Of a DNA stretch of 43,095 nt, positions 3,577 to 29,116 are shown one piece after another. The notes under the pieces are model-generated. The model was not told where the DNA came from. It made no database searches and was given only the letters and a program-made list of their open reading frames with translations. A program made the translations under genes and the position numbers. Within the stretch, counting starts at the first letter, position 1. Each line of letters starts with the position of its first letter. The stretch is from Rhodovibrionaceae bacterium (GTDB taxonomy: Bacteria > Pseudomonadota > Alphaproteobacteria > Kiloniellales > DSM-21159): the NCBI GenBank assembly GCA_028285215.1, contig JANQPZ010000011.1:1-43095 (forward strand), read 5' to 3'.

Positions 3577-4236
3577 TCATTCGGCGGCAGCAGCTCCCGC
3601 CTCGCTGGCGTGTTCGCCGAGGGCCCATTTGGAGAAGCGGACCTGGATGCCGTAAGGCGAATGGGCCTTGAGAATCCCCATGACACCGTCGTAAGTCACA
3701 CCGCGCGCCCAGTCCTGTTGCAGTTCGAAGATGTACTGCAGCGCAGTCATCGGCACCGCGCCGGCCTGAACGAGACGCTGCATGGCACGCTCATGGGCCT
3801 CGGGCGTGACATCGCCGCAGGCATCGGCGACGACATGAACGTCGTAGCCCTCGCGCAGCATATCGAGCGTCGGGAACATCACGCAGGCTTCGGTCCAGAG
3901 GCCGGCCAGCACGATCTTCTTCCGGCCGGTCGCGGCGACCGCTTGGCGGAAATTCCCGTCGACCCAGGAGTTGATCGAGGTCCTGTCGACGATGTCGTGA
4001 TCGGGGAAAAGCTCCGTCACTTCCGGCATGAAAGGGCCGGAAAAGCTGTCCTGCGCCACCGTCGACAGCACAGTCGGGAGGCCGAAGAGCTTCGCACCCT
4101 TGGCGAGGATCTGCACATTGTGCATCACCGACAGGCGGTCGTGGCTTTCAACGCCCTGATACATGGCGGGCTGGAAGTCGATCAGAACCAGCGCGCTGTT
4201 TTCCGGAGCAATCATCTCAAGTTTGCCGTCAGTCAT
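3577..4236 (-). CDS. Isochorismatase-family cysteine hydrolase (YcaC-like), copy 1
   Basis: Cysteine hydrolase of the isochorismatase fold, 219 residues, cytoplasmic. It most resembles the YcaC subgroup, whose natural substrate is poorly known. Visible motifs are Asp20 in LVLIDFQPAM, the SINSW segment near 88-91, and the nucleophile Cys118 in AGLWTEACVM. The usual third residue of the Asp-Lys-Cys triad cannot be placed with confidence, because the candidate segment reads VDRTSINSW with Arg. The frame is open far upstream, but ATG 4236 is chosen because GGGAG lies about 8 nt before it and the family similarity begins there. It is divergent from the AraC-type gene, which probably controls it. 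A clear paralogue lies at 6622-7323. Confidence 0.9.
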   Translation of the reverse strand: MTDGKLEMIAPENSALVLIDFQPAMYQGVESHDRLSVMHNVQILAKGAKLFGLPTVLSTVAQDSFSGPFMPEVTELFPDHDIVDRTSINSWVDGNFRQAVAATGRKKIVLAGLWTEACVMFPTLDMLREGYDVHVVADACGDVTPEAHERAMQRLVQAGAVPMTALQYIFELQQDWARGVTYDGVMGILKAHSPYGIQVRFSKWALGEHASEAGAAAAE

Positions 4237-4563
4237 CTTCAATCTCCCAAAGCTGGCCAAGTTGGCTTCGAGTCCCCGCTCAGTCGCGTCACCCGCGGAG
4301 CCGGAGGCCGTCGACTGAAAGGCCGCCAAGGCGCCAGGATGAGAGACCGCGTGCAGGGCAGAGCTTGCCAACTTCCGTTGGCACCGGCTCCTCGGCTTGG
4401 CTGACGTTGACGAGCCGTCGCCCGCGTCGCTTCGCTTAATGGAAAGATGATCTGAATTCGCCTCCGGCGCTTTCACGATTGCGCTGGCCTTTACAGGAAT
4501 GTGCGCAAATCTGCGGTCCCGTGCTTGAACACTGCCGGAACCGGCATCAAACTCCTTGTCGAC
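4237..4563. promoter_or_regulatory. Divergent intergenic region between hydrolase and AraC-type gene
   Basis: 327 bases between divergent starts. The GTG at 4501 is an alternative start for the AraC-type gene and would shorten it. It must hold both promoters, but I see no convincing -35/-10 pair or strong palindrome. The most AT-rich part is around 4435-4460. No small gene is convincing. Confidence 0.4.
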
Positions 4564-5508
4564 ATGAAAAAAGAGATCGACATCCCAGACAGCGGCGCAC
4601 AGCGTTTCGTGCTCAAGGCTGCGGAGGAGCGGAGCGTCGCCTTCGACGGCCCGCCGGTTTCGCAGCTGCCCGAGTGGGGCGGCGTCGCCAACACAGACGG
4701 CGTGCGTTTTATTCTGCACCCGCCGCTCGATTTCGAGATCGCCTATCGGATCCCCGACTATCTCATCTTTACCCCTTACGCGCGGGCGGTTGTCGATGTT
4801 GCGCTGAAGGACGGGCCGACGAAACGCAGGACGTGGAGCGCCGGTGCGGCCATGGTCGTGCCGCCGGAGACCTGCGTACGCGCCCGCATGGCCGAGCCGG
4901 TGGAGTTTCTCTGCATCATCGTCGCACCGGAGCGCGCCGAAGCCGTGATCGCGCGCGCCGCGCACGGCCGGCTGTGGGCTCCGGAGGTGATTGAGGACTT
5001 CGGCGACGCCGGTTTCGCCGCGCTTCAGCAGGAGGTGCGACGCTCGCTGCTTGGCGACCCGCTGGTCGAGCCTGCCTACCTCGAAAGTCTCGCCGATGCG
5101 ATGTTGGCGCGGATTGCCTGCCGGCTGCTGGGCCGGCCGACAGGACCCCAGAGAAAGGAGGCTCTGCCGCCTTTCGTCCTGCGCAGCGTCACAGAGCAGA
5201 TCGAGGAGACTCTCGCCGAGACGATCCGCGTTGAAGAGATCGCCAAACAGGTCGGCCTCAGCCGCTCGCACTTCTCGCGCGCCTTTCAAGCGGCAACCGG
5301 ACAAACGGCGCAAGAGTTCATCATCACGCGGCGCATTTGCCGGGCACGGGATCTGCTCGTCGAGACGGACCGGAACGTCGCCGAGATCGCAGCGGCCACC
5401 GGGTTCTCCAGCCAGGCGCACCTGTCGTCCGCCTTCAAGAAACGGCTGGGCGTCTCTCCGGGCCGCTATCGCGACGCCTTTCAGAGGGACGGGCTGCAGG
5501 CCCCCTGA
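4564..5508 (+). CDS. AraC-family transcriptional regulator
   Basis: DNA-binding regulator, 314 residues from ATG 4564. A GTG at 4501 in the same frame would add 21 residues, and neither start has a strong ribosome site, so the start is uncertain. The C-terminal third carries two helix-turn-helix motifs of the AraC/XylS type: VEEIAKQVGLSRSHFSRAF, and VAEIAAATGFSSQAHLSSAF followed by KKRLGVSPGRYR. The N-terminal 200 residues look like a cupin-type sensor domain (FAEDG-like hydrophobic strands, ILHPPLDFEIAYR), ligand unknown. It is divergent from the YcaC-like hydrolase at 3577, the most likely target. Confidence 0.9.
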   Translation: MKKEIDIPDSGAQRFVLKAAEERSVAFDGPPVSQLPEWGGVANTDGVRFILHPPLDFEIAYRIPDYLIFTPYARAVVDVALKDGPTKRRTWSAGAAMVVPPETCVRARMAEPVEFLCIIVAPERAEAVIARAAHGRLWAPEVIEDFGDAGFAALQQEVRRSLLGDPLVEPAYLESLADAMLARIACRLLGRPTGPQRKEALPPFVLRSVTEQIEETLAETIRVEEIAKQVGLSRSHFSRAFQAATGQTAQEFIITRRICRARDLLVETDRNVAEIAAATGFSSQAHLSSAFKKRLGVSPGRYRDAFQRDGLQAP

Positions 5509-5787
5509 CGCAGACGCGTCGCGATAGGCCTGCGTGTTGGCGACGCTTCGCCCGCTTGCCCGTGAACAAACTCGCCGGGGACCCGGCAGTGCCTCAGGTA
5601 TGGCGGCTAGACGGCTCCGTACCCCGCCATGACGAGCGACGATCGGATAGCCGTTCGACCCTTGCGGGTGCGGCGCCCCGTCTGCCATCTGCCCTCACCT
5701 CCCTGAGTCGACTCGGTCTTTGAGGAACTGCTCGCTAACCGCCGGCCCGGTCACCGATGCGCCCGAAGCACACCAAGCCGCCTTCGG

Positions 5788-6534
5788 TCAAAGCTCCGAC
5801 ATGCCCCCGTCGACGACATACTCGGAGCCGGTCACATAGGCGGCGTCGGACGACAGGAGGAACGTGGCCACCGCTGCTACCTCCTCCGGCGTCCCGAAGC
5901 GGCCGAGCGGCACCTGGGAGAGGATCATCTCGCCCATGCCGGCGATCTCCTCTTCGTTCATCCCCGTGCGGGCGAAGAAGCCGGTGCCGATCGGACCCGG
6001 GCTGACCGCGTTGACGCGGATGCCGCGTGGCGCCAGCTCCCGGGCGAGGCTGCGAACGAGCGTGCGGGCAGCCCCCTTCGCAGAGGCGTAGACGGCAGAG
6101 CTCGGCAGCCCCATGACATTGACGACGGAGGTGGTGAGCAGAACCGCCCCGCCATCGGCCATCAGCGGCGCCAGGGCCCGGGACTGCAGCAGCGGCGCCT
6201 TGACGAGCACGTCGTAGTGCGCGTCGAACTCCGCCGCCGTCACACTTTCCAAAGGATGGAAGCGTCCGAAGCCGGCGTTCAGAAAGGCTGCGTCCAGGGG
6301 CCGTGCGAGCGCGCGAACCGCTTCGGCGAGTCCGTCCGCAGCAGCGGGATCGGCAGCATCGTTCTGCAGCAGCGTCGCGTCCGGCAACTCGGCTTTTGCG
6401 GCCTCCAGGCTACTCGGTCGGCTGCCGGTCACGATCACCTGACCGCCCTCGGCCTGCACCCGCTTGGCAGTCGCCAAGCCGATGCCGCTCGTGCCGCCGG
6501 TGACGAGCACGAGCTTGTCATGGAAACGAGACAT
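5788..6534 (-). CDS. Short-chain dehydrogenase/reductase (SDR)
   Basis: Classical SDR, 248 residues, an NAD(P)-dependent oxidoreductase of the cytoplasm. The nucleotide-binding motif TGGTSGIG is at 12-19, the NAG motif at about 86-88, and the catalytic Ser136, Tyr149 and Lys153 (YASAK) are all present. The substrate-side loop PGPIGTGFF and the C-terminal end TGSEYVVDGGMSEL are typical. ATG 6534 follows GGAG about 9 nt upstream. It lies downstream of the second isochorismatase-family gene on the same strand. A strong hairpin (6559-6576) separates the two, so co-transcription is uncertain. Substrate unknown. Confidence 0.92.
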   Translation of the reverse strand: MSRFHDKLVLVTGGTSGIGLATAKRVQAEGGQVIVTGSRPSSLEAAKAELPDATLLQNDAADPAAADGLAEAVRALARPLDAAFLNAGFGRFHPLESVTAAEFDAHYDVLVKAPLLQSRALAPLMADGGAVLLTTSVVNVMGLPSSAVYASAKGAARTLVRSLARELAPRGIRVNAVSPGPIGTGFFARTGMNEEEIAGMGEMILSQVPLGRFGTPEEVAAVATFLLSSDAAYVTGSEYVVDGGMSEL

Positions 6535-6558
6535 GGCTTGCGTCTCCGGGAATTGGGA

Positions 6559-6576
6559 GCGGCCGGAAGCGGCCGC
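6559..6576 (-). terminator. Perfect 7-bp hairpin with CTTC loop between hydrolase 2 and SDR
   Basis: On the minus strand GCGGCCG, loop CTTC, CGGCCGC. It lies 45 nt after the stop of the isochorismatase gene and 24 nt before the SDR start. No U-tract follows. It could terminate or attenuate the upstream transcript, or stabilise its 3' end. Confidence 0.45.
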
Positions 6577-6621
6577 GCCGGGTTTACGGAGAGGAAAGGA
6601 AAGAGCCCTACCGGGCGGCGC

Positions 6622-7323
6622 CTATTGAGCGGCCGCCGCCGTGCCGTCGGCGGGAACCGGATCCAACCGCGGACCGTGGGTCACCCGCTCGTCGGCCTTG
6701 TGCACGTGGGTGTAGGCGTAGTCGACACCCATGCCGTAAGCGCCGCCATGCTCGCGAACGATCGTCATCAGTCCGTCGTAGGTGTCGCGCCGCGCCCAGT
6801 CGCGCTGCCATTCCAGCATGGTCTGAAGCGTGGTCATGGGAACGACGCCGGCCTGGATCATGCGCTGCATGGCCATGTCCTGAGCCAAGGTCGAGGTATC
6901 GCCCGAGGCATCGGCGACCATGTAGATCTCGTAGCCGCCTTCATCCATTGCGGAGAAGGCGAAGGTGTTGTTGCAGACACTGGTCCAGAGGCCGGAGACG
7001 ATGACCTTCTTGCGACCGGCCTTGGCCAGCGCGTCGCGCACCTTCTGGTCGTCCCAGGAGTTCATGGAGGTGCGCTCGAGCAAGGGATGCTCGGGAAAGA
7101 CCTCCAGCAGTTCGGGGTAGGTGTGACCGGAGAAGGTGTCGGTCTCGACCGTGGTGATGCTGGTCGGAATGTCGAAGAGCTTAGCCGTTTTGGCGAGGGC
7201 GACGACGTTGTTCTTCAGCGTCTGCCGGTCGATCGACTGCACTCCGAAGGCCATCTGCGGCTGGTGATCAATGAAAATGAGCTGGCAGTTGTCTGGTGTC
7301 AAAAGATCCGGTCTGGTGGTCAC
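6622..7323 (-). CDS. Isochorismatase-family cysteine hydrolase (YcaC-like), copy 2
   Basis: Cysteine hydrolase of the isochorismatase fold, 233 residues. It is a paralogue of the 3577-4236 product, with shared segments such as TDTFSGHTYPEL against QDSFSGPFMPEV, TSMNSW, GRKKVIVSGLW, and an MQRMIQAGVVPMT-like end. The nucleophile is Cys117 in GLWTSVCNN, and the general base is probably Asp19 in IFIDHQPQM. The frame is open to 7371, but the start is set at GTG 7323. A perfect AAGGAGG (7329-7335) lies five bases before it, and the family alignment begins there. It has a longer C-terminus than copy 1, with an Ala-rich end. It is divergent from the HxlR regulator, whose palindrome lies between the two genes. 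Confidence 0.9.
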   Translation of the reverse strand: MTTRPDLLTPDNCQLIFIDHQPQMAFGVQSIDRQTLKNNVVALAKTAKLFDIPTSITTVETDTFSGHTYPELLEVFPEHPLLERTSMNSWDDQKVRDALAKAGRKKVIVSGLWTSVCNNTFAFSAMDEGGYEIYMVADASGDTSTLAQDMAMQRMIQAGVVPMTTLQTMLEWQRDWARRDTYDGLMTIVREHGGAYGMGVDYAYTHVHKADERVTHGPRLDPVPADGTAAAAQ

Positions 7324-7328
7324 TTGCC

Positions 7329-7335
7329 CCTCCTT
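7329..7335 (-). promoter_or_regulatory. Ribosome binding site fixing GTG start at 7323
   Basis: Perfect Shine-Dalgarno AAGGAGG on the minus strand, 5 nt before GTG 7323. It rules against the in-frame ATG further upstream. Confidence 0.75.
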
Positions 7336-7463
7336 GTTTACAGGCCGTCGTATCTGTTGGCATACAGTCAAGCTGCTGCGGCACCTCTGGTTTTTTTGTT
7401 TGCTCAGAAGTGATCCTGAGGTAGGCAGAGAAGCAAGTGGCCTTTCCGGACCAATCTTAAAAG

Positions 7464-7940: not shown

Positions 7941-8861
7941 CTATTGCGCGGCGACGTCCTGCAGCAGTCCGGCGCGTTGCAACACGGCGTCGAGACGGGG
8001 CTCGAGCTCCGGCGCTGCGGGCATCATCGGCAGGCGGTGGGTGTTCTTGGGAAGCTGACCCAGCCGCCGCATCATGTACTTGATGGCAATCGGGTTGGTG
8101 TCGAAGAAAACCGCCTTGTTCAGCTCCCAGAGCTTGAAATGCAGCGCCCGTCCGCGCGCCATGTCGCCGGCCGCCGTCGCCTCGTAGAGCTCGGCGACCG
8201 CCTCCGGCCAGACGTTGCCGACCGCGTTCATCATGCCCGCGGCGCCGATGCAGAGCATGGGAAAGCTCAGCTCCTCAAGGCCGACGAAGATGCGGAACTC
8301 CTCGCCGAAGGTCCGCAGCATCTCGCTGACCAGGGCCAGCTCGATGACGGCATGCTTGATGCCGACGAAATCCTCCGAAGCGCTTGCGACCTCCTGCAGC
8401 GTCTCCAGGGTCACCGAGACCGCCGTGCGGCCGGGGATGTGGTAGATCATCCAGGGTTTGTCGGTGCGCTTGGCCAGCTCCCTGTAGTAGGCAACCAGGC
8501 CGCGCTGCGGCGGGCGGATGTAATAGGGCGTGACGATCAGCAGTGCATCCGCCCCGGCGTTGCTGGCATGCTCGGTGAGTGCCGCCGACTCCGCAAAACT
8601 CTGCGAGCCGGTCGCCGCCACCACGGGCACGCGCCCGGCGGCCGCCTCGATCCCCACGTCGACGAGCTTGTTGCGCTCCTCGACCGTCAGGGTCGAAGGC
8701 TCCGAGGTCGTGCCGTTGACCACGATTCCGTGGGTGCCGGCCGCGATCTGCTGATCCACGAGTGCCGCGTAGGCGTCGTAGTCCACGGCACCCGCGTCCG
8801 AAAAGGGCGTCACCAGCGGCGGGTAGCTGCCGCGCAGGAAGCTCTTGTCCAGCGATCTCAT
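7941..8861 (-). CDS. DapA-family (dihydrodipicolinate synthase / N-acetylneuraminate lyase) aldolase
   Basis: Class I aldolase of the DapA family, 306 residues, TIM barrel. The Schiff-base Lys169 sits in FVGIKHAV, Tyr140 and Arg145 in IYHIPGRT, and the substrate loop reads NGTTSEPST where biosynthetic DapA has GTTGE. The family covers DapA itself, keto-acid lyases and hydratase-aldolases that split ring-cleavage products. As the last gene of a catabolic operon with a bicupin dioxygenase, a degradative lyase role making pyruvate is more likely than lysine synthesis. That is inference. ATG 8861 overlaps the preceding stop (ATGA), and GGGAG lies 8 nt before it. The longer open frame upstream is a shadow inside the cupin gene. 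Confidence 0.9.
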   Translation of the reverse strand: MRSLDKSFLRGSYPPLVTPFSDAGAVDYDAYAALVDQQIAAGTHGIVVNGTTSEPSTLTVEERNKLVDVGIEAAAGRVPVVAATGSQSFAESAALTEHASNAGADALLIVTPYYIRPPQRGLVAYYRELAKRTDKPWMIYHIPGRTAVSVTLETLQEVASASEDFVGIKHAVIELALVSEMLRTFGEEFRIFVGLEELSFPMLCIGAAGMMNAVGNVWPEAVAELYEATAAGDMARGRALHFKLWELNKAVFFDTNPIAIKYMMRRLGQLPKNTHRLPMMPAAPELEPRLDAVLQRAGLLQDVAAQ

Positions 8862-9982
8862 TCGGCCGCTCCCGCCAACTTCCGGTTGGTGCCGAAGCCC
8901 GGCTGGCTGCCCAGGATCGAGGCCGGCAGCTTGAGGTCCTCCTGCCACAGCAGGGATTCCATCCAGATGTTCAGCGGCTGATCCTGAACGGTGAGTTCGT
9001 AGACGTAGTCGTCGTAGCTGGCGTGGTTGTGAACGGCCCAGCCCGGCGCCGAGAGCATCAGGTCGCCGGCCTTCCACTCCAGCACTTCGCCTTCGACCGT
9101 GCTCCGACCGCTGCCGCTGAAATAGTAGTTGATGGCTGCCGAAACGTGGCGATGCGGGCGATCGACGATCTTCGGCGGGCGGATCGTCATGGTGGCGAAG
9201 AAGCTGGGGGTGGTGCCGTTGGTTCGCTCGGTCCGCGGGTTGTAGAGCAAATAAAGACGGCGGCCGACGTAGTCCTTGCCCAGAGCCTCCAGCTTGTCGA
9301 TGTTCTCCTTCACCAGCTCCCAGGGCCAGTGCAGCACGGGCGACGGGACCGACGCGGGATTGATCAGCGTCTCATAAGGCATCAGCCAGGCCCCGTCGTC
9401 GGTGAGCTGGAAGGTGCCGTAGGGACTCGCGCGCCTGGGATCCTCCCGGCCCTTCTCCTCGCCGTAGTCGTAGCCCTCGCCGTCGACCGCCCGAATGTCC
9501 GTCGGTGCGTTCTCCTCCGCAAGGTAGACGTTCATCTTGTCCAGCAGGGCGGCGTTGGAATAGGTCAGCCGCACCTGCAGATCGCTGGTGTCGTTGACAT
9601 GCCAGTAGGTCACGTAGGAGGGATGATTCCAGACGTCGTACTGTCCGAAGTCCACACGCTTGCCGCCGGAGATCGAATGGCCGCCGCCGCGGATGCAGAA
9701 GTTCACCTCGGTCGCGTTGTGGCGGAAGGGCGCGGTCTTCTCGCCCGGCTTCAGGACGTCGAGGCTGACGCGGATACCCGGCGCCAGACCGAGCCCCGGC
9801 GCCTTCGAGCGCGGATGCACGATCCAGGACTGGCGGCGGCCGTTCGCCGGCATCGGCAGGTCGGCCAGACGCTCGATCTCCGCGTCGATCGCCTCCTTCG
9901 AGATCACCGTGGCGGGCCAGAAATCCAGCGGCTGCTGGTGATCGGCGCCCGCCTTGTCCACGAAAAACCCATTGCTGCTCAT
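8858..9982 (-). CDS. Bicupin ring-cleavage dioxygenase-like protein (gentisate 1,2-dioxygenase family)
   Basis: Double-cupin protein, 374 residues, length and layout as in gentisate, salicylate and 1-hydroxy-2-naphthoate dioxygenases, which open aromatic rings with Fe(II). Cupin 1 (about 70-145) reads PFRHNATEVNF, with Phe86 where the first His of the HxH motif is expected and His128 later in VTYWHVN. Cupin 2 (about 262-335) has the full set: His277 and His279 in RPHRHVSAAI, then PGWAVHNHAS. The metal is therefore likely to sit in the C-terminal cupin. ATG 9982 has GGGAGGAG 6 nt upstream. It is third in a four-gene operon, and its stop overlaps the DapA-like start. The exact substrate is unknown. 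Confidence 0.85.
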   Translation of the reverse strand: MSSNGFFVDKAGADHQQPLDFWPATVISKEAIDAEIERLADLPMPANGRRQSWIVHPRSKAPGLGLAPGIRVSLDVLKPGEKTAPFRHNATEVNFCIRGGGHSISGGKRVDFGQYDVWNHPSYVTYWHVNDTSDLQVRLTYSNAALLDKMNVYLAEENAPTDIRAVDGEGYDYGEEKGREDPRRASPYGTFQLTDDGAWLMPYETLINPASVPSPVLHWPWELVKENIDKLEALGKDYVGRRLYLLYNPRTERTNGTTPSFFATMTIRPPKIVDRPHRHVSAAINYYFSGSGRSTVEGEVLEWKAGDLMLSAPGWAVHNHASYDDYVYELTVQDQPLNIWMESLLWQEDLKLPASILGSQPGFGTNRKLAGAAE

Positions 9983-10019
9983 CTGAGCTCCTCCCTCGTC
10001 GTCTGACCTTCCGGGCCGC

Positions 10020-11027
10020 TCAGGCGGCGCGCGTCAGGCGCGGTTTCACTTTCGTCGGATGCGGGACATGGCGGCCCAATCCCTGCACCTCGGCCTCGTG
10101 CAGCACCGCCAGCCCCACCGCCAGGTCGGAAATGCCCATGCCCATGGCCTTGAACAGAGTCAGGTCCGCAGCGGCCGGACGGCCTGCACCCTCGGCCACG
10201 ATCTCGGAAAGCGGCCGAGCGGCCTGCCAAGCCGCGTCGTCGTCGCCGAAGCATGTGCGGAACTCCTTCGACAGGCGCCGCACCGACGCCACGCTGTCGA
10301 CGCCGATGGCGCCGCAGCGTGCGAAGACGTCCTGGCTGAACTCCTCGCGTTCGGGCGAGATCGCGCCGACGGCATTGAGGTGCGTGCCGTGTGCCAGCTC
10401 GGCAGACCCGACGATGGGAGCCCGCGCCCGGGTCACCAGGGTCACGACATCGGCATCGGCGACGCAGGCCGCGGCGGTCTCCACCGCCGCCACCTCGACC
10501 CTCAGGCCGGCGTTCCGAACACTCTCGGCAAACCCCTTGCGTCGCTCGGCGTCGCGACCGAACACACGGACCTCCGAAATCGGGCGCACGGCGCAAACGG
10601 CGGCAACCTGCGTCAGCGCCTGTTTGCCTGTACCGACCTGACCGAGCACGGCGGCATCGGGCCGCGCCATCCAGCGCGTGGCCACGCCCGTAACGGCGGC
10701 GGTGCGCATCTGCCCGAGCGCAAAGGCCTCGATCACAGCACGCAGCCGCCCGGTCTCCGAGTTCCAGATCAACAGCAGCGGCGTCGCGCCGCCCGCCGTA
10801 TGCGCCCAGGTCTTGGTGCCCACGACCTGCTCGCCCTCGATCGTGGCGCCGATGGCATGCAGCGTGTGACCGCCGCCCCAGAGAACCTGGGTCTTTTCCA
10901 TGTTCATGGCGCGGCCCTGTGCCTGCAGCGCCAACCCGTACTCCAGAGCGTCGATCGCATCCGGCAGACTGATCGCCTGCACCACATCGGCCTCGCTGAC
11001 CCAGAGCGTGAAGTTCTCGGCGCTCAT
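10020..11027 (-). CDS. Ornithine cyclodeaminase / mu-crystallin family protein
   Basis: NAD(P)-binding protein of the OCD/mu-crystallin family, 335 residues. Members convert ornithine to proline, reduce imines, or dehydrogenate amino acids. Visible features are Lys72 in VVGTKTWAH, Arg108 in GQMRTAAVTG, the Rossmann turn GQVGTGKQALTQ at 129-140, and Asp244 in GVDSVASVRR. In ornithine cyclodeaminase the equivalents of these residues contact substrate. In an operon with ring-cleavage genes, imine reduction or deamination of a nitrogen-bearing intermediate is plausible but unproven. Its ATG overlaps the stop of the CMD-like gene by 4 nt, and 37 nt separate it from the cupin gene. Confidence 0.9.
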   Translation of the reverse strand: MSAENFTLWVSEADVVQAISLPDAIDALEYGLALQAQGRAMNMEKTQVLWGGGHTLHAIGATIEGEQVVGTKTWAHTAGGATPLLLIWNSETGRLRAVIEAFALGQMRTAAVTGVATRWMARPDAAVLGQVGTGKQALTQVAAVCAVRPISEVRVFGRDAERRKGFAESVRNAGLRVEVAAVETAAACVADADVVTLVTRARAPIVGSAELAHGTHLNAVGAISPEREEFSQDVFARCGAIGVDSVASVRRLSKEFRTCFGDDDAAWQAARPLSEIVAEGAGRPAAADLTLFKAMGMGISDLAVGLAVLHEAEVQGLGRHVPHPTKVKPRLTRAA

Positions 11028-11605
11028 CCTGTGAATCCGTCCTCGAAGATGGAGGGCACCGGCGGCTCCAGTGCCAGCGTGTTGACGATCAAGGCGTGCA
11101 CCAGATAGCGCCCCGCCACCATCATCACCGCGACGGCCTGCCGGTGGCCGAGCCGTTCCACGAGACGCTCGAAGGCGACCTGCGCCGCCTCCGAGCGGCC
11201 ATGCGATGCCAGCGCGGCGAGCAGGTAGCGCTGCACCGCCCGCTCGGCGTCGGAAAGAGATCGAGCCCCCGCGGGCAAGGCCTCATCAGGATTCAGACGC
11301 TCGACCGCCTCGACCCAGTCGCGACCGAGTCCGAGCCGCACAGAGAGGCGCTCATGCTGATTGCGCTCGTAGGCGTTGCCGAGATGAACCGCACAGGTCA
11401 GAGCGATCACCTCGACCAACTCTTTGGGCAGATCCGACTTGGCGCTTTCGGTGAAGGCCACGAAGGCTTCGAGTGCCCGGGGCTGATGACCGGCCACCCG
11501 GAAAAACTCACCGAGATAGCCCAAGCGCTCGACGCGCGGGCCCAGCGCCGCCGCCAAGCCACCGGGCATGTCCTGCAGATCCAGTCGCGGAATAGCTTTA
11601 CTCAT
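11024..11605 (-). CDS. Carboxymuconolactone decarboxylase (CMD/AhpD-fold) family protein
   Basis: All-helical CMD-fold protein, 193 residues, first gene of the leftward catabolic operon. The core reads PKELVEVIALTCAVHLGNAYERNQHE. Cys71, Glu80 and His84 fit the E-x-C-x-H pattern of the CMD domain, and there is only one Cys rather than the CxxC of peroxidase-coupled AhpD. Relatives act as decarboxylases in protocatechuate breakdown or as hydroperoxide-linked reductants. Which applies here cannot be told. ATG 11605 lacks a strong ribosome site. A 20-bp palindrome lies 20 nt upstream. Its stop overlaps the next gene (ATGA). Confidence 0.85.
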   Translation of the reverse strand: MSKAIPRLDLQDMPGGLAAALGPRVERLGYLGEFFRVAGHQPRALEAFVAFTESAKSDLPKELVEVIALTCAVHLGNAYERNQHERLSVRLGLGRDWVEAVERLNPDEALPAGARSLSDAERAVQRYLLAALASHGRSEAAQVAFERLVERLGHRQAVAVMMVAGRYLVHALIVNTLALEPPVPSIFEDGFTG

Positions 11606-11871
11606 GAGAGGCTTTCTAATTTTTCTATTCGCACTTTAGCGAATAAACTTCTCCTATCCAAGCGCTAAGGCTCTTCGGTTTTTCAAGTCATATCACACTG
11701 ATAATAAATAATATTTATAGGTTTTATGGAAAGTATTTCAATCGGATAATCCTCTTGTGATCGACATAATCTACATATATCGTTCACTTACGAGCAAAAT
11801 CTGCCGACACCCCACTCAAGGGCGCGACGACAAGACGCCACGGCAGTCGAGAAACATTGGGAGGAATCGAA
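11606..11871. promoter_or_regulatory. Divergent AT-rich promoter region between catabolic operon and TRAP operon
   Basis: 266 bases that control both the leftward CMD-OCD-cupin-DapA operon and the rightward TAXI-TRAP genes. About 11690-11790 is strikingly AT-rich, including ATAAAT (11704-11709) / ATTTAT (11713-11718). It contains the operator-like palindrome listed separately. A GGGAGGA ribosome site ends it. Confidence 0.6.
11626..11645. promoter_or_regulatory. Palindromic operator candidate upstream of the CMD-first operon
   Basis: Perfect inverted repeat TATTCGC, spacer ACTTTA, GCGAATA, in the leader or promoter of the leftward operon. Size and symmetry fit a MarR-type site, and the MarR gene at 14853-15347 is the obvious candidate regulator. 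The right arm and flank (TTAGCGAATAA) resemble TTAGCGAACAA at 18554-18564, upstream of the M29-like gene. Confidence 0.55.
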
Positions 11872-12855
11872 ATGCGCAAGTTCGCGATCGCGGCGACAGT
11901 GGCGGTCCTTGGCCTCATGGCACCGCCGGCATCTGCCGAGAGCTACAATCTCACCGTTGCAGGGGCCTCCCCCGGCGGCCTCTGGTCGCTTCTAGGGGCG
12001 GGCCTCGACGCGGCGGTCAAGGCAGCTCACCCCGGATCGACGGTCACCTACCAGACCTCCGGCGGCGGCCTGGCAAACGTTGCCGTGCTTCAACGCAAAG
12101 ACGCGGACATGGGCATCGTGCACGATGCGGAACTGCAGGTCGCAAAACAGGGAAGCGCGCCCTTCAGCGAACCGGTCGAGGACCTGCGGGTCCTGAGCTA
12201 TCTCTATACCTGGGCGCCCATGCAACCGGTGATCCGAGCCGACTTCGCCAAGGAACACGGCATCGACACCTTTGCCGATCTGGCCGCCCGGCAGGTTCCG
12301 GTGCGCGTGGCCATCAACAAGCGCGGCAACATCGCCTCCGAGGTGGCGCTGGCCATGCTGGAAGCGATCGGCGCCGGTCCCGACGAGATCGAGGCCTGGG
12401 GCGGCGACGTGATCTATGCCGCTTCGGGCGAACAGGCGACGCTGATGCAGGACCGCCGGGTCGACATGACCCTCAACTCGATCTTCGTGCGGCACCGTTC
12501 CATCATGCAGCAGGCCGATGCCATCGACCTGAAGCTTCTGCCGATCGCGCCGGAAACGCAGACGGCGGTCAACGAGCGCACCGGAACCGGCGATTTCGTC
12601 ATTCCGGGCGGCAGCTACGACTGGGCGCCCGACGACACGCCGACGGTGACTCTGGGAGCCGCCCTGGTGGTGCGGGCCGATATGGACGAGCAGACGGCCT
12701 ACAACCTGACCAAGGCGCTGTTCGAGAACCATGACAAGATTGCCGGCGTGCACAAGGCCATGAACGCCCTGACGCCGGAGATCATGGCCGCCCAGACGGT
12801 CGTCCCCTATCACGCAGGCGCCCGGCGCTATCTCTCCGAAGCCGGCCTGATGTGA
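11872..12855 (+). CDS. TAXI-family TRAP transporter solute-binding protein (system 1)
   Basis: Periplasmic substrate-binding component of a tripartite TRAP transporter, TAXI type, 327 residues. A cleavable signal peptide is seen (MRKFAIAATVAVLGLMAPPA, then SAE, with the cut probably after ASA). The mature part begins YNLTVAGASPGGLWSLLGAG, the family's usual start, and has TSGGGLANVAVLQRKDADMG. ATG 11872 is chosen over an in-frame start 15 nt earlier because GGGAGGA lies 6 nt before it. The fused permease follows after 7 nt. TAXI systems typically import organic acids, and co-location with dioxygenase genes suggests an aromatic acid. Confidence 0.93.
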   Translation: MRKFAIAATVAVLGLMAPPASAESYNLTVAGASPGGLWSLLGAGLDAAVKAAHPGSTVTYQTSGGGLANVAVLQRKDADMGIVHDAELQVAKQGSAPFSEPVEDLRVLSYLYTWAPMQPVIRADFAKEHGIDTFADLAARQVPVRVAINKRGNIASEVALAMLEAIGAGPDEIEAWGGDVIYAASGEQATLMQDRRVDMTLNSIFVRHRSIMQQADAIDLKLLPIAPETQTAVNERTGTGDFVIPGGSYDWAPDDTPTVTLGAALVVRADMDEQTAYNLTKALFENHDKIAGVHKAMNALTPEIMAAQTVVPYHAGARRYLSEAGLM

Positions 12856-12862
12856 GGCCGAG

Positions 12863-14824
12863 GTGGCGCTTGCGACCATCGAGGTAAGGCGCACGCTGGC
12901 CGGGTTCGCGTCCTCCGGCCAGCGGCGCAAGCTTCCGGGACCGCTGGGTCGCGTGGTGCATGGCTTCGCGGCCCTGATTGCGATTGCGGTGATCTATACG
13001 ACGACCATCGTGTTCGTCGATCTCTTCGCCATGACGATCGTGTTCCTCGCCGCCATGCTGGCGCTGGTGTTCCTCACGGTGGGCGCCACACCCGACAGCC
13101 CGACCGACCGTCCCTCTGCCGTCGACTGGCTGTTTGCGCTCACCGCGCTGGCGGTCGGCGCCTACTTTCTGATCGAGAGCGAGCGGATCATCACGCGGAT
13201 CACGCTGCTGCATCCGCTGACCGGTCTCGACATGGTCTTCGCGCCGGCGCTGCTGATCCTGACGCTGGAGGCAACGCGCCGCACCGTCGGCATGGGGCTG
13301 ACGACGATCGTCGCCATCTTTCTGGCCTACAATCTCTGGGGTCACTGGCTGCCCGGCAAGCTGAGCCACGGCGAGATCAGCTTCAACCACTTCCTCGACA
13401 TCATGATGTTCACCACGGACGGCCTGTTCGGCGTGCCGATCCGGGTGGCCGCGACCTACGCCTTCCTCTTCGTGCTGTTCGGCACCTTCCTGGCGAAGGC
13501 CGGCGGCGCCGAGTTCTTCTACAACTTCGCCGCCGCGGTCGCCGGACGACGCCCGGGCGGGCCCGCGAAGATCGCCGTGGTCTCCTCCGGGCTCTACGGA
13601 ACGCTGTCCGGCAGCCCGACCTCGGACGTGGTCACCACCGGCTCGATCACCATCCCGATCATGCAGCGCCTCGGCTACTCGAAACGCCTGGCCGGCGGCG
13701 TCGAGGTCGCGGCCTCCACCGGCGGCAGTCTGCTGCCGCCGGTGATGGGCTCGGCCGCCTTCATCATGGCCGAGTTCACCGGCATCGAGTACCGCGAGAT
13801 CGTGATCGCCGGCCTGGTCCCGGCCTTGCTGTTCTACATCTGCGTCTACACCCAGGTGCATCTGCGCTCGCTCAAGCTGGGCCTGCGGGGGCTGCCGGGG
13901 GACGAGCTGCCGGTGCTGACCGCGACCCTGAAGAACGGCGGGCTGTTCCTGGTGCCGCTGGTGGCCATGACGATCGCGCTCCTGATGGGCTACTCGCCCA
14001 CCTACGTCGCCGTCTTCGCCACGGCCACGGTGCTGGCCGTTTCCCTGGTCCGTCCTTCGACCCGCATGGGCCTGCTGAAGATCTGGGACGCCCTCGGCGA
14101 GACCACGCTGCGCATGGTTTCGGTGGTCGCGGCCTGTGCCGCCGCCGGCCTGGTGATCGGCGGCATCTCCATGACCGGCCTGGCCAACAAGTTCGCGGAC
14201 CTGGTGTTCCTGCTGGCCGGCGACAGCGCCGCCCTGGCGCTGGTGATCGCGGCGGCCCTGTCGATCCTTCTCGGCATGGGGATGCCGACACCCTCGGCCT
14301 TCATCCTGGCCGCCGTCCTGGTGGGGCCGACGCTGCTCGAGATGGGGTTCAGCCTGCTGCAGGCGAACCTGTTTCTGCTCTACTTCGCCGTCCTTTCAGC
14401 CATGACGCCGCCGGTCGCCGTGGCCGCCTTCGCGGCGGCGGCCATCGCCGATGCCAATCCGCTGCACATCGCCTTCACCGCGGTGCGACTGGCCATCACC
14501 GCCTTCATCGTGCCCTTCGCCTTCATCTATGGCGACGGTCTGCTGCTGCAGGGCGACGCGCTCAACGTGGCCGTGGCCTGCACCACAGCGCTGGCCGGCG
14601 TGCTGATTCTCGCCGTGGCGGTCGAGGGTTACCTGAAGGGACCGCTGGGCCCGCTGCCGCGCCTGCTGTTCGCCGCGGCCGGCCTGCTGCTGATCGTGCC
14701 CACCATCGTCTCCGCAGCGGCAGCGCTGGGTCTTCTGATCCTGGCGCTGATCCTGACGCCCGGTCTCGTGGCCCACCTCACCGGACGGGCGAAGACGCCC
14801 GTTTCCCAAACAAACGCCGACTGA
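12863..14824 (+). CDS. TAXI-type TRAP transporter fused permease (DctQM), system 1
   Basis: Integral membrane part of the TRAP transporter, 653 residues, with the small (4-TM) and large (12-TM) subunits fused in one chain, as is usual for TAXI systems. Diagnostic stretches are GSPTSDVVTTGSITIPIMQR, STGGSLLPPVMGSAAFIMAE, LGMGMPTPSAFILAA and AMTPPVAVAAFAAAAIA. Start GTG 12863 sits 7 nt after the binding-protein stop, with GAGG in the overlap region. A C-terminal 100-residue hydrophobic extension (ALAGVLILAVAVEGYL onwards) follows the large-subunit core. It imports the ligand captured by the neighbouring TAXI protein using an ion gradient. Confidence 0.92.
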   Translation: MALATIEVRRTLAGFASSGQRRKLPGPLGRVVHGFAALIAIAVIYTTTIVFVDLFAMTIVFLAAMLALVFLTVGATPDSPTDRPSAVDWLFALTALAVGAYFLIESERIITRITLLHPLTGLDMVFAPALLILTLEATRRTVGMGLTTIVAIFLAYNLWGHWLPGKLSHGEISFNHFLDIMMFTTDGLFGVPIRVAATYAFLFVLFGTFLAKAGGAEFFYNFAAAVAGRRPGGPAKIAVVSSGLYGTLSGSPTSDVVTTGSITIPIMQRLGYSKRLAGGVEVAASTGGSLLPPVMGSAAFIMAEFTGIEYREIVIAGLVPALLFYICVYTQVHLRSLKLGLRGLPGDELPVLTATLKNGGLFLVPLVAMTIALLMGYSPTYVAVFATATVLAVSLVRPSTRMGLLKIWDALGETTLRMVSVVAACAAAGLVIGGISMTGLANKFADLVFLLAGDSAALALVIAAALSILLGMGMPTPSAFILAAVLVGPTLLEMGFSLLQANLFLLYFAVLSAMTPPVAVAAFAAAAIADANPLHIAFTAVRLAITAFIVPFAFIYGDGLLLQGDALNVAVACTTALAGVLILAVAVEGYLKGPLGPLPRLLFAAAGLLLIVPTIVSAAAALGLLILALILTPGLVAHLTGRAKTPVSQTNAD

Positions 14825-14852
14825 GAAAAGGGGGCGACCGACCGTGACCGCC

Positions 14853-15347
14853 TCAGCGGCGTTCGTTCTCTATCTGCTGCCGCAGTTCCTCCCGGATCGC
14901 CTTGAGGGACTGGCGCAAGGAGGCGACTTCGGCCGGCTGCAAGCTCGCGGCCGCCATCCGGTTCACCTCGATCGCATAGGGCAGCAGCTGCCGCTCCAAA
15001 GCCCGCCCCTCGCGGGTCAGAAAGACGTTGTACTTGCGCTTGTCCGACGGGTGCGGCTTGCGTTCGACGAGACCGCGCTTTTCCAGATCGTTCAGCGCGG
15101 TGACGGTCCGGGGGGTCATGATGCCCGCGCGCTTCGAGAGCTCCGCCTGGGTCAGGCCCTCCTGCTCCCAGAGAACGCGCAGGAAGAACCAGTGCCCCAT
15201 GGTGATGCCGCAGGTCTCGATCCGCGCCTGCAGCAGCCGCTGGAAGTAGCGATAGGTGTCGCGCAGCAGATAACCGATGCTGTCGTCCGGGTGAAGAACC
15301 GGCCGCGGCGTCTTTCGACGGGACGGCTTCTTTTCGGGTTCGCTCAT
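14853..15347 (-). CDS. MarR-family transcriptional regulator
   Basis: Winged-helix regulator, 164 residues from ATG 15347. The frame is open further upstream, but the extra residues look like shadow. The core shows GYLLRDTYRYFQRLLQARIE, the helix-turn-helix LTQAELSKRAGIMTPRTVT, ALNDLEKRGLVERKPHPSDK, and the wing RKYNVFLTREGRALERQL. MarR regulators often answer to aromatic acids and repress degradation genes. It sits between the TRAP permease and the divergent Rieske dioxygenase genes, so control of the Rieske and transport genes is likely. A hairpin repeat (15378-15395) and another (15490-15505) lie in its upstream region. Confidence 0.92.
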   Translation of the reverse strand: MSEPEKKPSRRKTPRPVLHPDDSIGYLLRDTYRYFQRLLQARIETCGITMGHWFFLRVLWEQEGLTQAELSKRAGIMTPRTVTALNDLEKRGLVERKPHPSDKRKYNVFLTREGRALERQLLPYAIEVNRMAAASLQPAEVASLRQSLKAIREELRQQIENERR

Positions 15348-15545
15348 CGCGCCTGCTCTGCTCTCGCTCTGATCCTGCGCTCCGGCCCTGGAGCGATGCC
15401 TCCAGCCTGCCTGCGCCTGGGTGCAGCGGCCTGGCAGCTCCATGACCGCTTTTCACAGAACAGCTCGAATCGAGGTGCGTCAACACCTTGCGGCCCGGAG
15501 GCCGCGAACTCGTTAAGCATCGAATGAAAGCAGAGGACCGCTGCA
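15348..15545. promoter_or_regulatory. Divergent MarR / Rieske dioxygenase promoter region
   Basis: 198 bases with two perfect inverted repeats: CGCTCC-GGCCCT-GGAGCG (15378-15395) and GCGGCC-CGGA-GGCCGC (15490-15505). The first is a possible MarR site or leader structure. The second lies about 40 nt before the dioxygenase start. A ribosome site AGAGGA ends it. No clear sigma-70 pair is visible. Confidence 0.45.
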
Positions 15546-16787
15546 ATGGATGAGATGGCCCCTTCGGCGACAGACCGCCGCTGGTCGGAGGAAGGGTACA
15601 GCCGTGTGCCCTACTGGCTCTATACCGACCAGGACATCTACGATCGCGAGCAAGGCCTGATCTTCCAGGGCCCCTTCTGGAGCTATGTGGCGCTCTCGGC
15701 GGAACTGGCGGAGCCCGGGGACTTCAAGCGGACCTTCATCGGCGACCGCTCGGTCGTGATCGTGCGCGACCAGGATGGGGAGATCCGGGGTTTCGAGAAT
15801 CGCTGCGCCCATCGCGGCGTGCAGTTCTGCCGCACCCACCGCGGCACGGCCAAGGACTTCATGTGTCCCTACCACCAGTGGACCTACGACCTGCGGGGCA
15901 ACCTGATCGGCGTGCCGTTCCGGCGCGGCGTCAAACGCCAGGGGGGCATGCCGGCAGACTTCGATCCCAAGAACCACGGCCTGCGCAAGCTGCGCACGGC
16001 CGAGCGGCACGGCGTCGTCTTCGCCAGCTTCGACCCGGCCGTGCCGCCGCTGGAGGCCTATCTGGGCGAGGCGATGCTCGGCTACTTCGACCGCGTCTTC
16101 GATGGCCGCAAGCTGAAGGTCCTGGGCTATCAGCGCCAGCGCACGCCGGCGAACTGGAAACTGATGTTCGAGAACATCAAGGACCCCTACCACGCCAGCC
16201 TGCTGCACGTGTTTCTGGTCACCTTCGGGCTGTTCCGGGCCGACAACGAGTCCAGCGTCGAGATGGATGCCACGGGCCGTCACGCCGTTCTGGTCTCGCG
16301 CAAGGGCGAGCAGAAGAAGACCGAAGATCTGTCCGACATGAAGAGCTTCCGCGAAGCCCTTCAGCTCAACGATCCCCGGCTGCTCGATCCCGTGCGCGAG
16401 TTTCCCGGCACGGCGACCGTGGTGATGCAGACGCTTTGGCCGAACCTGATCGTGCAGCAGCAGTCGAACACCTTGGCGATGCGTCAGCTCGTGACCCGCG
16501 GCCCCAACGCCTTCGACCTGATCTGGACCTACTTCGCCTATGCGGACGACGAGGAGGCAATGGTCACGCGCCGCCTGCGCCAGGCCAACCTGATGGGTCC
16601 CGCCGGCTACGTCTCGCTCGACGACAGCGAGGTCATGGAGTTCTCCCAGGTCGGCATTGCCCAGGCACCGCAGGCCAGCGGCGTCGTCGAGATGGGCGGA
16701 CACGACACGGAGGACACGCCGCACATGGTGACCGAGAGCGCGATCCGCGCCTTCTACAAGTACTACCGCGAGATCATGGGAGTCTGA
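15546..16787 (+). CDS. Aromatic ring-hydroxylating dioxygenase, Rieske alpha subunit
   Basis: Catalytic large subunit of a Rieske non-heme iron oxygenase, 413 residues. The [2Fe-2S] motif is complete: Cys87-x-His89, 17 residues, Cys107-x2-His110 (CAHRGVQF and MCPYHQWTYD). The mononuclear iron site is visible as Asp213-x2-His216-x4-His221 in ENIKDPYHASLLHVF, with a later carboxylate in VSLDDSEVMEF. It belongs with benzoate, anthranilate and salicylate-type alpha subunits. The substrate cannot be read from sequence. ATG 15546 has AGAGGA 8 nt upstream. The beta subunit starts 3 nt after its stop. No ferredoxin or reductase gene is in the window. Confidence 0.93.
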   Translation: MDEMAPSATDRRWSEEGYSRVPYWLYTDQDIYDREQGLIFQGPFWSYVALSAELAEPGDFKRTFIGDRSVVIVRDQDGEIRGFENRCAHRGVQFCRTHRGTAKDFMCPYHQWTYDLRGNLIGVPFRRGVKRQGGMPADFDPKNHGLRKLRTAERHGVVFASFDPAVPPLEAYLGEAMLGYFDRVFDGRKLKVLGYQRQRTPANWKLMFENIKDPYHASLLHVFLVTFGLFRADNESSVEMDATGRHAVLVSRKGEQKKTEDLSDMKSFREALQLNDPRLLDPVREFPGTATVVMQTLWPNLIVQQQSNTLAMRQLVTRGPNAFDLIWTYFAYADDEEAMVTRRLRQANLMGPAGYVSLDDSEVMEFSQVGIAQAPQASGVVEMGGHDTEDTPHMVTESAIRAFYKYYREIMGV

Positions 16788-16790
16788 ATC

Positions 16791-17300
16791 ATGGACGGTG
16801 CCACTCAACTGCGTGCTCTGCCCGAGGATCTGGCTCTGCGGGTGGCGGTCGAGGACTTCTATGCCCGCTACGTCGAGATCGCGAACGATCCACTGCGCCT
16901 GGAGGACTGGCCGGAGCTTTTCACCGAAGACGGGCAGTATCGCGTCCTGCCCCAGGAGAACTGGCAGCAGGGCTGGCCCCTGGCCCTGGTGCGCGCCGAA
17001 AGCCGCGGCATGCTGAAGGATCGGGTCGCTGCCGCCCAAGGCATCAACACCTACACGCCGCGAGTGATGCGCCACCTGGTCTCCAACATCCGCTGCGACC
17101 GCGCCGGCAGCGGGGAGATCGAGACGAAAGCCAACTTCGCCGTGTTCGAGACGATGATCGACGAGCCCAGTCGGGTGTTCGCGACAGGCGTCTATCGCGA
17201 CCGCCTGATCGAAGACGCAGATGGGCTCCTGAGGCTGCAGGAACATGTCGTCGTTCTGGACAACGACTTGGTGCCCAACAGCATCGTCTATCCGCTGTGA
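16791..17300 (+). CDS. Aromatic ring-hydroxylating dioxygenase, beta subunit
   Basis: Small structural subunit (SnoaL/NTF2-like fold), 169 residues, forming the alpha3-beta3 oligomer with the preceding product. Typical stretches are AVEDFYARYVEIANDPLRLE, WPELFTEDGQYRVL, AESRGMLKDRVAA, MRHLVSNIRC and the C-terminal LQEHVVVLDNDLVPNSIVYP. It starts at ATG 16791, and the end of the alpha gene provides GGGAG as ribosome site, so translation is coupled. The end converges on the M29-like gene with a 22-nt gap. Confidence 0.93.
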   Translation: MDGATQLRALPEDLALRVAVEDFYARYVEIANDPLRLEDWPELFTEDGQYRVLPQENWQQGWPLALVRAESRGMLKDRVAAAQGINTYTPRVMRHLVSNIRCDRAGSGEIETKANFAVFETMIDEPSRVFATGVYRDRLIEDADGLLRLQEHVVVLDNDLVPNSIVYPL

Positions 17301-17322
17301 CAGCCGCGCTCCAGCGGGCCGG

Positions 17323-18483
17323 TCAATCGGGCCAGTTCTGCAGCAGGTCGACGGGGTCGCCGTAGCGCGACGCCATCTCCACGACGCTCGGCGCCTCCAG
17401 AGACTTGAGGAAGCCCCCGTCGATCAAGGTCGTGTTTCCCGCGGTGACGGTCATGTTGTAGCTGATCAGGTCCATGTGCACCGGCGGTTCTTCCCACTCG
17501 GGCATGACCCGGCGGATGTAGTCCGAAGGCCTGGCCAGATCGATCCCCCAATGCAAGGCACCCGGGGAGTTGGAGCCGGCAGGATAGACGGTATAGCGGG
17601 GCGCCTTGGGGTTGAAGCCGCAGCCCAGCTCGATCAGCTGACCGTCGGTCAGCATGTCGCGGAAAAGTGCGGCCAGGTCCCCGTCCCCCCTGACGGCGGC
17701 GATGCGATCGCGCGCGAAGACCACCTCGAAGCGCTCGTCGAACGGCTTCTCGAACCCGACCGCCCACTGCGGGATCACCACGCCGTCGATCTCGGCCACC
17801 ACGCTGTCGTCGTTGTCGAAGGCCGTGCGGTCATAGAGGTTCGGACCGTGGGTCGGGAGGTAGTGGACGTAAGCGCCCGGCTCGTTGGGCGTCATCTGAC
17901 CGCGCCAGCGATTGGAGCGCAGGAGATTGGCCCGCATCTCCGGCGTGAACTTGATACGCAGATCCGAGCCCTGCGGACAGGTGAAGCGGAGATCGAAGGC
18001 CTGGCCCTCCGGATAGAGCGCCGCCGTCTGCCGGATGATCTCGCCGACGATGTCGATGGGAAAACGCGCCTGCGGCGTCTTGAGCAGCTCGAGATCGCGG
18101 AAGTAGGTGATCTTGACCCAGCGCTGCCCGCCCTTGCGCAGGGCGATGCAGAGGGGATCGATGATCGAGCAGAACCAGGTGGAGATCACGAAGGTCGCCC
18201 CTTCCAGGAGCGGCTTGATCTCCTCCGGGATTTCCGTGTGCTGGGTCGTGTGGCTCATGACCACCATCGGCTCCGTGCCCCGCGCACGCGCCAGACCGCA
18301 GATCGCATGAATCACCTTCGGATCGATCCCCCGGTCGGCCAGAAAGACGACCCGGTCCTCGCCGGTAAAGCAGAAGGTGCGATTGAAGTTCTCCAGGGCC
18401 TGAAAGTACTCGGCCGTCTGAACCGTTTCGAGGCTCTTCTCCCGCGGCAAGCCGACATAGGGGATCCCACTCGACGTCTGCAT
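17323..18483 (-). CDS. M29 aminopeptidase / NicX-like metalloprotein
   Basis: 386-residue protein of the M29-like metalloprotein fold, which contains thermophilic aminopeptidases and 2,5-dihydroxypyridine 5,6-dioxygenase (NicX). N-terminal half: GEDRVVFLADRGIDPKVIHA and TTQHTEIPEEIKPLLEGA, as in the substrate domain. C-terminal half: the metal-binding positions are seen in LIELGCGFNPKAP, GALHWGIDLARP and PPVHMDLISYN, with the Glu, His and His-x-Asp residues expected. ATG 18483 has GGGAGGAAAG directly upstream. It lies convergent with the Rieske genes, so a role in the same pathway, possibly opening an N-heteroaromatic ring, is an inference. A peptidase role remains possible. Confidence 0.75.
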   Translation of the reverse strand: MQTSSGIPYVGLPREKSLETVQTAEYFQALENFNRTFCFTGEDRVVFLADRGIDPKVIHAICGLARARGTEPMVVMSHTTQHTEIPEEIKPLLEGATFVISTWFCSIIDPLCIALRKGGQRWVKITYFRDLELLKTPQARFPIDIVGEIIRQTAALYPEGQAFDLRFTCPQGSDLRIKFTPEMRANLLRSNRWRGQMTPNEPGAYVHYLPTHGPNLYDRTAFDNDDSVVAEIDGVVIPQWAVGFEKPFDERFEVVFARDRIAAVRGDGDLAALFRDMLTDGQLIELGCGFNPKAPRYTVYPAGSNSPGALHWGIDLARPSDYIRRVMPEWEEPPVHMDLISYNMTVTAGNTTLIDGGFLKSLEAPSVVEMASRYGDPVDLLQNWPD

Positions 18484-24984: not shown

Positions 24985-24986
24985 GC

Positions 24987-29058: not shown

Positions 29059-29075
29059 GGAGAGGCCGGACCCCA

Positions 29076-29116
29076 GGTCCCAAAGCACGGGACCCCGATG
29101 AACGTCAGATCATCGG
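29076..29116 (+). terminator. Two tandem hairpins after the REC-kinase gene
   Basis: GGTCCC (29076-29081) / GGGACC (29089-29094), followed at once by CCGATG (29095-29100) / CATCGG (29111-29116). Both stems are perfect, starting 18 nt after the stop. No U-tract is present. Likely terminator or 3' structure between convergent genes. Confidence 0.5.

Follow-up and report, generated by a model that had tools for sequence, protein, structure and literature searches.

In the degradation of phenanthrene and naphthalene, the bicupin PhdI is paired with PhdJ, a hydratase-aldolase of the DapA type. The canonical gentisate and salicylate dioxygenases carry their iron site in the N-terminal cupin (PMC10306065), and the 3-aminobenzoate (mab) pathway employs the 5-aminosalicylate 1,2-dioxygenase MabB, followed by a lower part for which a deaminase and a hydrolase have been proposed (PMC9584955). 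Here we compare these systems with a gene island at positions 7941-18483 of a 43,095-nucleotide stretch (the window) on contig JANQPZ010000011.1 of a Rhodovibrionaceae bacterium, whose genome assembly (G000) comprises 3.99 Mb in 366 contigs and is 83% complete. The island encodes the alpha and beta subunits of a Rieske oxygenase (RieA and RieB), a TAXI-TRAP transporter, a MarR-family regulator and a four-gene module specifying a bicupin and DapA-, OCD- and CMD-like proteins. The gene set is a real, conserved catabolic unit. Our preferred reading, held with slightly better than even confidence, is that of a MarR-controlled island for the catabolism of an aromatic carboxylic acid, similar to the conversion of salicylate via gentisate and provided with a different lower part. 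A preliminary description of the locus stated that no described pathway with this exact set was known to its author, and no description of the set was found in the open-access literature searched.

The nine genes from dapA to RieB form a syntenic block in the congeneric genomes G001 and G002 (75-95% identity), whereas the genes on either side are mostly different. In a scan of public genomes the island-type cupin was recovered at 20 loci (64-92% identity); it was present in 12 of the 385 alphaproteobacterial genomes searched, and a phylum-wide draw of genomes yielded it in none beyond the genus of the window. The complete set was also found in three other alphaproteobacterial genera (L035, L080 and L084). 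Locus L035 unites RieB, RieA, MarR, TAXI, CMD, OCD, cupin, dapA and the M29-like gene; a TRAP permease was not found there. In two genomes of another family (G271 and G169) the order TAXI-TRAP-RieA-RieB adjoins dapA-cupin-OCD-CMD-CMD, with ferredoxin, FAD ferredoxin reductase, TauE and UbiD-type decarboxylase genes as neighbours, and in G360 the TAXI-TRAP-RieAB block lies around 23 kb from dapA-cupin-OCD-CMD on one contig. Megaplasmids of Paraburkholderia carry cupin-dapA-CMD-OCD as a single operon, Cupriavidus necator N-1 has the arrangement OCD-cupin-RieB-RieA, and on two Rhodococcus plasmids dapA and OCD are situated within around 10 kb of the cupin. The clustering of the island genes is well above chance. 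Of 13 genomes, 12 have an island-type DapA (at least 58% identity) directly beside the cupin, the other DapA paralogues showing 48% identity or less. In 7 of the 13 the best OCD match is no more than around 2 kb away from a cupin; in G169 the island copy scores just under a second OCD copy. Such second island-type OCD copies are found in G271 (L106, contig C28) and in G169 (L083), the latter around 8 kb from a second cupin gene. The check on co-occurrence proposed in the preliminary description gave a divided outcome: both halves of the island are together in 7 of the 13 cupin-bearing alphaproteobacterial genomes and apart or unresolved in 6. Counted by genus, they are together in 5 of 8, in one of these 23 kb apart on one contig.

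In the relative L035 both halves appear to share an operator, as predicted from the palindrome TTAGANATCTAA, which occurs there upstream of MarR/RieA, of the TAXI gene and of the CMD operon (three sites, versus 0.23 expected). Akin sites are located ahead of RieA in L080 and, with two mismatches, in G178, and ahead of the cupin in L036, L051 and L083. Relatives of the MarR regulator adjoin RieA in L035 and G178, and the cupin in L036, L051 and L075-L078. The window contains the palindrome TTCGCACTTTAGCGAA at 11628-11643, which is kept in three congeneric genomes and is a candidate operator only. The TTCG-N8-CGAA palindromes of the window are kept in the congeners as well, but within the window this loose pattern is no rarer than expected by chance. 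The co-occurrence in several lineages and the shared operator of L035 bear out the earlier view that the genes serve a single route. What stands of that interpretation is one aromatic-acid route of hydroxylation, cupin cleavage and lyase action that possesses a transporter and a MarR regulator of its own; its nitrogen and NicX components do not, as detailed below.

The organization of the island is given in Table 1. The minus-strand operon is transcribed in the order CMD-like, OCD-like, bicupin, DapA-like, and the coordinates confirm both the single operon and the 4-nt overlaps noted before, which are of the ATGA type and occur at the CMD/OCD and cupin/DapA junctions; the gap between OCD and cupin is around 37 nt. 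The TAXI-TRAP genes diverge from this operon. MarR and RieA form a second divergent pair, and the M29-like gene converges on RieB. All of these had been placed in one divergent group, which is correct for the plus-strand TAXI-TRAP and Rieske alpha/beta genes. MarR and the M29-like gene are on the minus strand and therefore outside the rightward operon. The transporter consists of a TAXI-type solute-binding protein and a fused permease of the 4TM-12TM type, both scoring above their family cut-offs.

Table 1. Features of the island in the window (positions in nucleotides; strand relative to the window).
Feature	Position	Strand	Remarks
DapA-family class I aldolase	7941-8861	-	DHDPS fold; nearest NCBIfam TIGR02313, below cut-off
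Bicupin, predicted ring-cleavage dioxygenase with salicylate/gentisate 1,2-dioxygenase fold	8858-9982	-	C-terminal metal triad
OCD/mu-crystallin-family NAD(P)H oxidoreductase, divergent subfamily	10020-11027	-	GAI replaces GAD
CMD/AhpD-fold protein	11024-11605	-	Without the CxxC of AhpD peroxidases
Divergent promoter region	11606-11871	.	Holds the TTCGCACTTTAGCGAA palindrome
TAXI-family TRAP solute-binding protein	11872-12855	+	TIGR02122, 154 bits vs cut-off 84; PF16868
Fused TRAP permease (DctQM)	12863-14824	+	TIGR02123, 585 bits vs cut-off 321
MarR-family regulator (helix-turn-helix)	14853-15347	-	Nearest family model HpaR, below cut-off
Rieske oxygenase alpha (RieA), salicylate 5-hydroxylase (NagG)/AndAc group	15546-16787	+	
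Rieske oxygenase beta (RieB)	16791-17300	+	AndAd model, 115 bits, below cut-off
M29-like metalloprotein, optional member	17323-18483	-	Also in G002 and L035

Judged by its sequence, RieA is an enzyme of the salicylate-5-hydroxylase (NagG) type. The gene adjoins that of the beta subunit, the Rieske CxH-C..H motif is intact and an Fe-binding motif, NIKDPYHASLLH, is present; among the sequences compared the Rieske motif is intact in 14 of 14, and the 2-His-1-Asp motif of the Fe site is found in the window and in 12 of the 13 others. Against the salicylate 5-hydroxylase 7c8z RieA scores 520 bits; its identity is 56% to an annotated NagG and around 45% or less to matches annotated as AndAc. The score of RieA on the AndAc model (465) is below the cut-off of 750 and that of RieB on the AndAd model (115) below the cut-off of 230; RieA is therefore a relative and not an equivalog of AndAc. 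A homologue with 59% identity resides in Azospirillum inside a complete ferredoxin-gtdA-maiA-FAH operon, and another (51%) in a picolinate/nicotinate-type cluster of Paracoccus. In an unrooted tree the RieAs of the alpha- and gammaproteobacterial cupin clusters are split from NagG and the Azospirillum protein (support 0.963), and the Cupriavidus RieA falls outside the island group. Plasmid p420573 of Paracoccus seriniphilus (390930-406860; L086/L088) encodes a salicylate-5-hydroxylase-type Rieske pair within a picolinate/nicotinate-type cluster that includes genes for xanthine dehydrogenase, NicX, an alpha/beta hydrolase, maleate isomerase, isochorismatase, an amidohydrolase, TRAP and MarR, and this pair is a candidate Rieske 6-hydroxypicolinate hydroxylase.

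No ferredoxin or FAD reductase for RieAB was found in the window. Both are present in the L080 and L084 islands, and the reductase in those of G001 and G002. A set of ferredoxin, FAD ferredoxin reductase, TauE and TAXI protein genes occurs on contig C235 of the source genome (L095, 6484-9253) and in L096, where a MarR gene is included; it is conserved elsewhere in the genus. The C235 pair is a candidate electron donor for RieAB.

The predicted structure of the bicupin (pLDDT 75) aligns best with salicylate dioxygenase (SDO; 2phd, Z 30.3) and gentisate dioxygenase (GDO; 3bu7, Z 28.7), the next family reaching around 21, and HHalign gives a colinear match to the SDO/GDO type over 307 columns (99.6%); the sequence identity is only around 15-22%. 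The earlier designation as a gentisate-type bicupin thus holds at the level of the fold, for profile and structure alignment alike. A His-x-His...His metal triad (H277/H279/H318) is found only in the C-terminal cupin, in 19 of 19 island-type cupins, all of which have lost the three-His Fe site of the N-terminal cupin; relatives of the GDOsp type carry both sites. The modelled bicupin would thus combine the salicylate/gentisate 1,2-dioxygenase fold with an iron site relocated to the C-terminal barrel. Circular permutation, hinted at by the phmmer domain matches to 3bu7, was rejected because the HHalign and structure alignments are colinear over the full length. The best NCBIfam match is the 5-aminosalicylate dioxygenase MabB (E 6e-19), with a score of 68.6 versus a cut-off of 650. 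Two further surroundings of such cupins were encountered. In Binatia and relatives (L038, L039, L041, L045 and L048) the same cupin occurs without DapA; after it come genes for a luciferase-like monooxygenase, an amidohydrolase and a nitrilase-like protein, an arrangement that is nearly identical in genomes from different studies. In marine alphaproteobacteria (L036, 6238-9893; L049, L043, L076) genes for nitrile hydratase alpha/beta and UbiD adjoin the bicupin, joined by an amidase gene in L036 and L049, which suggests a nitrile-bearing upper substrate in these organisms.

The DapA-like protein has the features of a class I aldolase: the Schiff-base lysine (GIKHAV) and the GTTSEP and YHIPGR motifs are kept in the island members. 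Its nearest NCBIfam model is that of 2,4-dihydroxyhept-2-ene-1,7-dioate aldolase ('not DapA'). In the OCD-like proteins of all 12 island members, Ile (GAI) replaces the Asp of the GAD motif, which we take to be catalytic. His or Asn occupies the position of AlaDH R52, the Arg that presumably binds the substrate carboxylate. The preliminary description took the OCD member as a sign of a nitrogen-bearing intermediate, a suggestion that these replacements do not sustain. The CxxC of the AhpD-type peroxidases is missing in 10 of 10 island CMDs. For the M29-like protein there was no Pfam or NCBIfam support even at loose thresholds, and no PDB match; its AlphaFold model (pLDDT 41) was too poor and was not used. 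With HHalign the match to NicX is colinear and weak (probability 73%, E 3e-5); the NicX iron triad H256/H309/D311 falls on E285/H336/D338. Given the missing family and PDB matches and the Glu285 in place of the first iron His, the identity with NicX was rejected and the M29/NicX-like label finds no support. Neither is the gene a general member of the island, as had been assumed: it was retained in one of the two congeners (G002) and is otherwise seen only in the window and L035.

The preferred reading can be cast as a route that builds on gene content, protein families, linkage and active-site residues, as read from sequence or structure, together with the shared operator of the relative; the order of the steps, the intermediates, the cleavage product and the roles of the OCD- and CMD-like proteins are what we infer. 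The TAXI-TRAP system would import the aromatic acid, and RieAB, as a NagG-type enzyme, would hydroxylate the ring with ferredoxin and FAD reductase supplied from contig C235. The bicupin, with Fe(II) in the C-terminal barrel, would then introduce O2 at the bond that joins the carboxyl-bearing carbon to its OH- or NH2-bearing neighbour, to yield a C7 2-oxo-dienedioate or a maleylpyruvate-like chain. The OCD-like NAD(P)H enzyme may act on C4 of this chain by reducing a C=O or C=N, after which the DapA-like class I aldolase would cleave it to pyruvate and a C4 semialdehyde of the fumaric or succinic type; the CMD protein may act as an accessory isomerase or decarboxylase. A split of a C7 compound to pyruvate and a C4 semialdehyde is consistent with the family nearest to DapA, a C7-dioate aldolase, and with the HpcH/HpaI-family aldolase and aldehyde dehydrogenase near OCD-cupin-RieBA in Cupriavidus N-1. 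Equally consistent with the C7 logic is the adjacency of gtdA and a DapA-family gene on plasmids of Actibacterium and Neorhizobium, where two short stretches contain no OCD or CMD gene. A tblastn search with Azospirillum MaiA and FAH found neither in the window, L029, L030, L035 and L080, the remainder of the genome not being searched; a partial GST/MaiA-like match in L084 was the sole exception. Neither the window nor the conserved islands contain GtdA. Decarboxylases of the Pht5, UbiD or amidohydrolase type recur in other versions of the island, suggesting that the upper substrate is not the same in all lineages, some of which may use a dicarboxylic aromatic.

Several observations weigh against this reading. 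The L035 palindrome was not found in the window, nor were counterparts of the relatives' decarboxylases, and we know of no ketone-reductase precedent in the OCD family. In genomes of the f111 family, RieA and OCD homologues are present elsewhere in the genome, far from cupin-dapA. Defluviicoccus and marine alphaproteobacteria have the cupin-DapA pair without RieAB, OCD or CMD nearby, and the core may therefore serve more than one upper pathway; in Binatia the cupin lacks DapA, RieAB, OCD and CMD in its vicinity.

A nitrogen-bearing substrate, i.e. an aminobenzoate (anthranilate, 3-aminobenzoate) or a pyridine carboxylate, appears rather unlikely to us, albeit the strongest of the alternatives. 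RieAB would then produce a ring with hydroxy, amino and acid groups, the cupin would cut it in the manner of 5-aminosalicylate 1,2-dioxygenase, and the OCD-like enzyme would reduce or deaminate the imine or enamine ahead of the aldolase. The OCD family does work on imines and amino acids, MabB is the top match of the bicupin, RieA resembles AndAc as well and has the Paracoccus homologue mentioned above, and nitrile hydratase, amidase or nitrilase-like genes stand beside the cupin in several relatives. On the other hand, the altered GAD and Arg positions of the island OCDs speak against it, as does the plain salicylate-gentisate pathway encoded by the closest RieA operon of known logic, that of Azospirillum, and no deaminase or RidA was seen in the window. 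That ordinary salicylate is the substrate, with the new lower steps just replacing MaiA and FAH, is unlikely: the 56-59% identity of RieA to NagG-type enzymes and the SDO/GDO fold of the bicupin would suit it, but the island RieAs form a split of their own in the unrooted tree, the cupin is only distantly related to SDO and GDO, and the decarboxylases of the relatives point to a dicarboxylic aromatic. It is very improbable that the island consists of two unrelated neighbours, a TRAP/Rieske hydroxylation system and a cupin-DapA-OCD-CMD module for another, non-aromatic or heteroaromatic compound, since the separation in the f111 genomes, the lone cupin of Binatia and the pairing of the Paraburkholderia module with a VanAB-type Rieske gene instead are opposed by the union of the halves in most genera, by the palindrome ahead of both halves in L035 and of both promoter types in other genera, and by the position of MarR relatives, next to RieA in certain genomes and next to the cupin in others. 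As to other routes, no link to homarine was found in the literature, and the riboflavin/lumichrome route was dismissed because ring cleavage is performed there by a catechol dioxygenase.

To the left of the island (3577-7371) the window encodes two isochorismatase-family (YcaC-like) hydrolases, an SDR protein and an AraC regulator, which are not kept alongside the island in G001 or G002. A second TAXI-TRAP pair is found at 37629-43055, together with an alpha/beta hydrolase and a POR-domain/DUF6537 protein (indolepyruvate oxidoreductase-like); no test made ties this pair to the island. The region 24592-35003 specifies a phytochrome-like sensor kinase, a heme oxygenase-like protein, response regulators and a CheB/CheR-PAS-kinase fusion of 1766 amino acids. 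An origin as sponge symbiont was considered and dropped; the one congener that was checked, ECT2AJA-110-B, is named after a benthic marine diatom culture.

Returning to the aromatic-acid route, we put forward tentatively, at clearly less than even confidence, that the island represents an undescribed lower pathway in which the product of the bicupin with its C-terminal iron site is first reduced by an OCD-derived enzyme that no longer has the catalytic Asp of its family; a DapA-type aldolase would then cleave the reduced chain, so that the hydrolytic steps of MaiA and FAH are avoided. The pathway would be present in marine lineages that are uncultured and in Paraburkholderia, which can be cultured, and Cupriavidus and Rhodococcus would have related versions. 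If true, this would be a third way to process a 1,2-cleavage product, beside MaiA/FAH hydrolysis and the direct hydrolysis of fumarylpyruvate, and would provide a function for a bicupin subfamily that extends across Alpha-, Beta- and Gammaproteobacteria, Binatia and Actinobacteria. As Paraburkholderia is culturable and has the four-gene module, the substrate is directly testable by genetics.

With the mab pathway the island shares hydroxylation followed by 1,2-cleavage and a distant similarity of the cupins, whereas it has an OCD-like protein and a DapA-like aldolase instead of deaminase and hydrolase. Like PhdI/PhdJ it combines cupin ring cleavage with a DapA-family lyase, but in the Actibacterium and Neorhizobium stretches with this adjacency the cupin has an N-terminal metal site and neighbours that suggest polycyclic aromatics. 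The lower part of the homoprotocatechuate pathway (HpaG/H hydratase, HpaI aldolase) is alike in the conversion of a C7 dioate to pyruvate and a C4 semialdehyde, to which may be added the likeness of the regulator to the MarR-type HpaR and of the island DapA to TIGR02313, whereas the upper part and the ring-cleavage enzyme are unrelated. Finally, the salicylate-gentisate pathway (NagG/NagH, GtdA, MaiA, FAH) has the same type of Rieske alpha/beta oxygenase followed by a bicupin of the GDO fold; in the island the iron site is in the C-terminal and not the N-terminal barrel, and DapA-, OCD- and CMD-like genes and a TAXI-TRAP transporter take the place of MaiA, FAH and GtdA.

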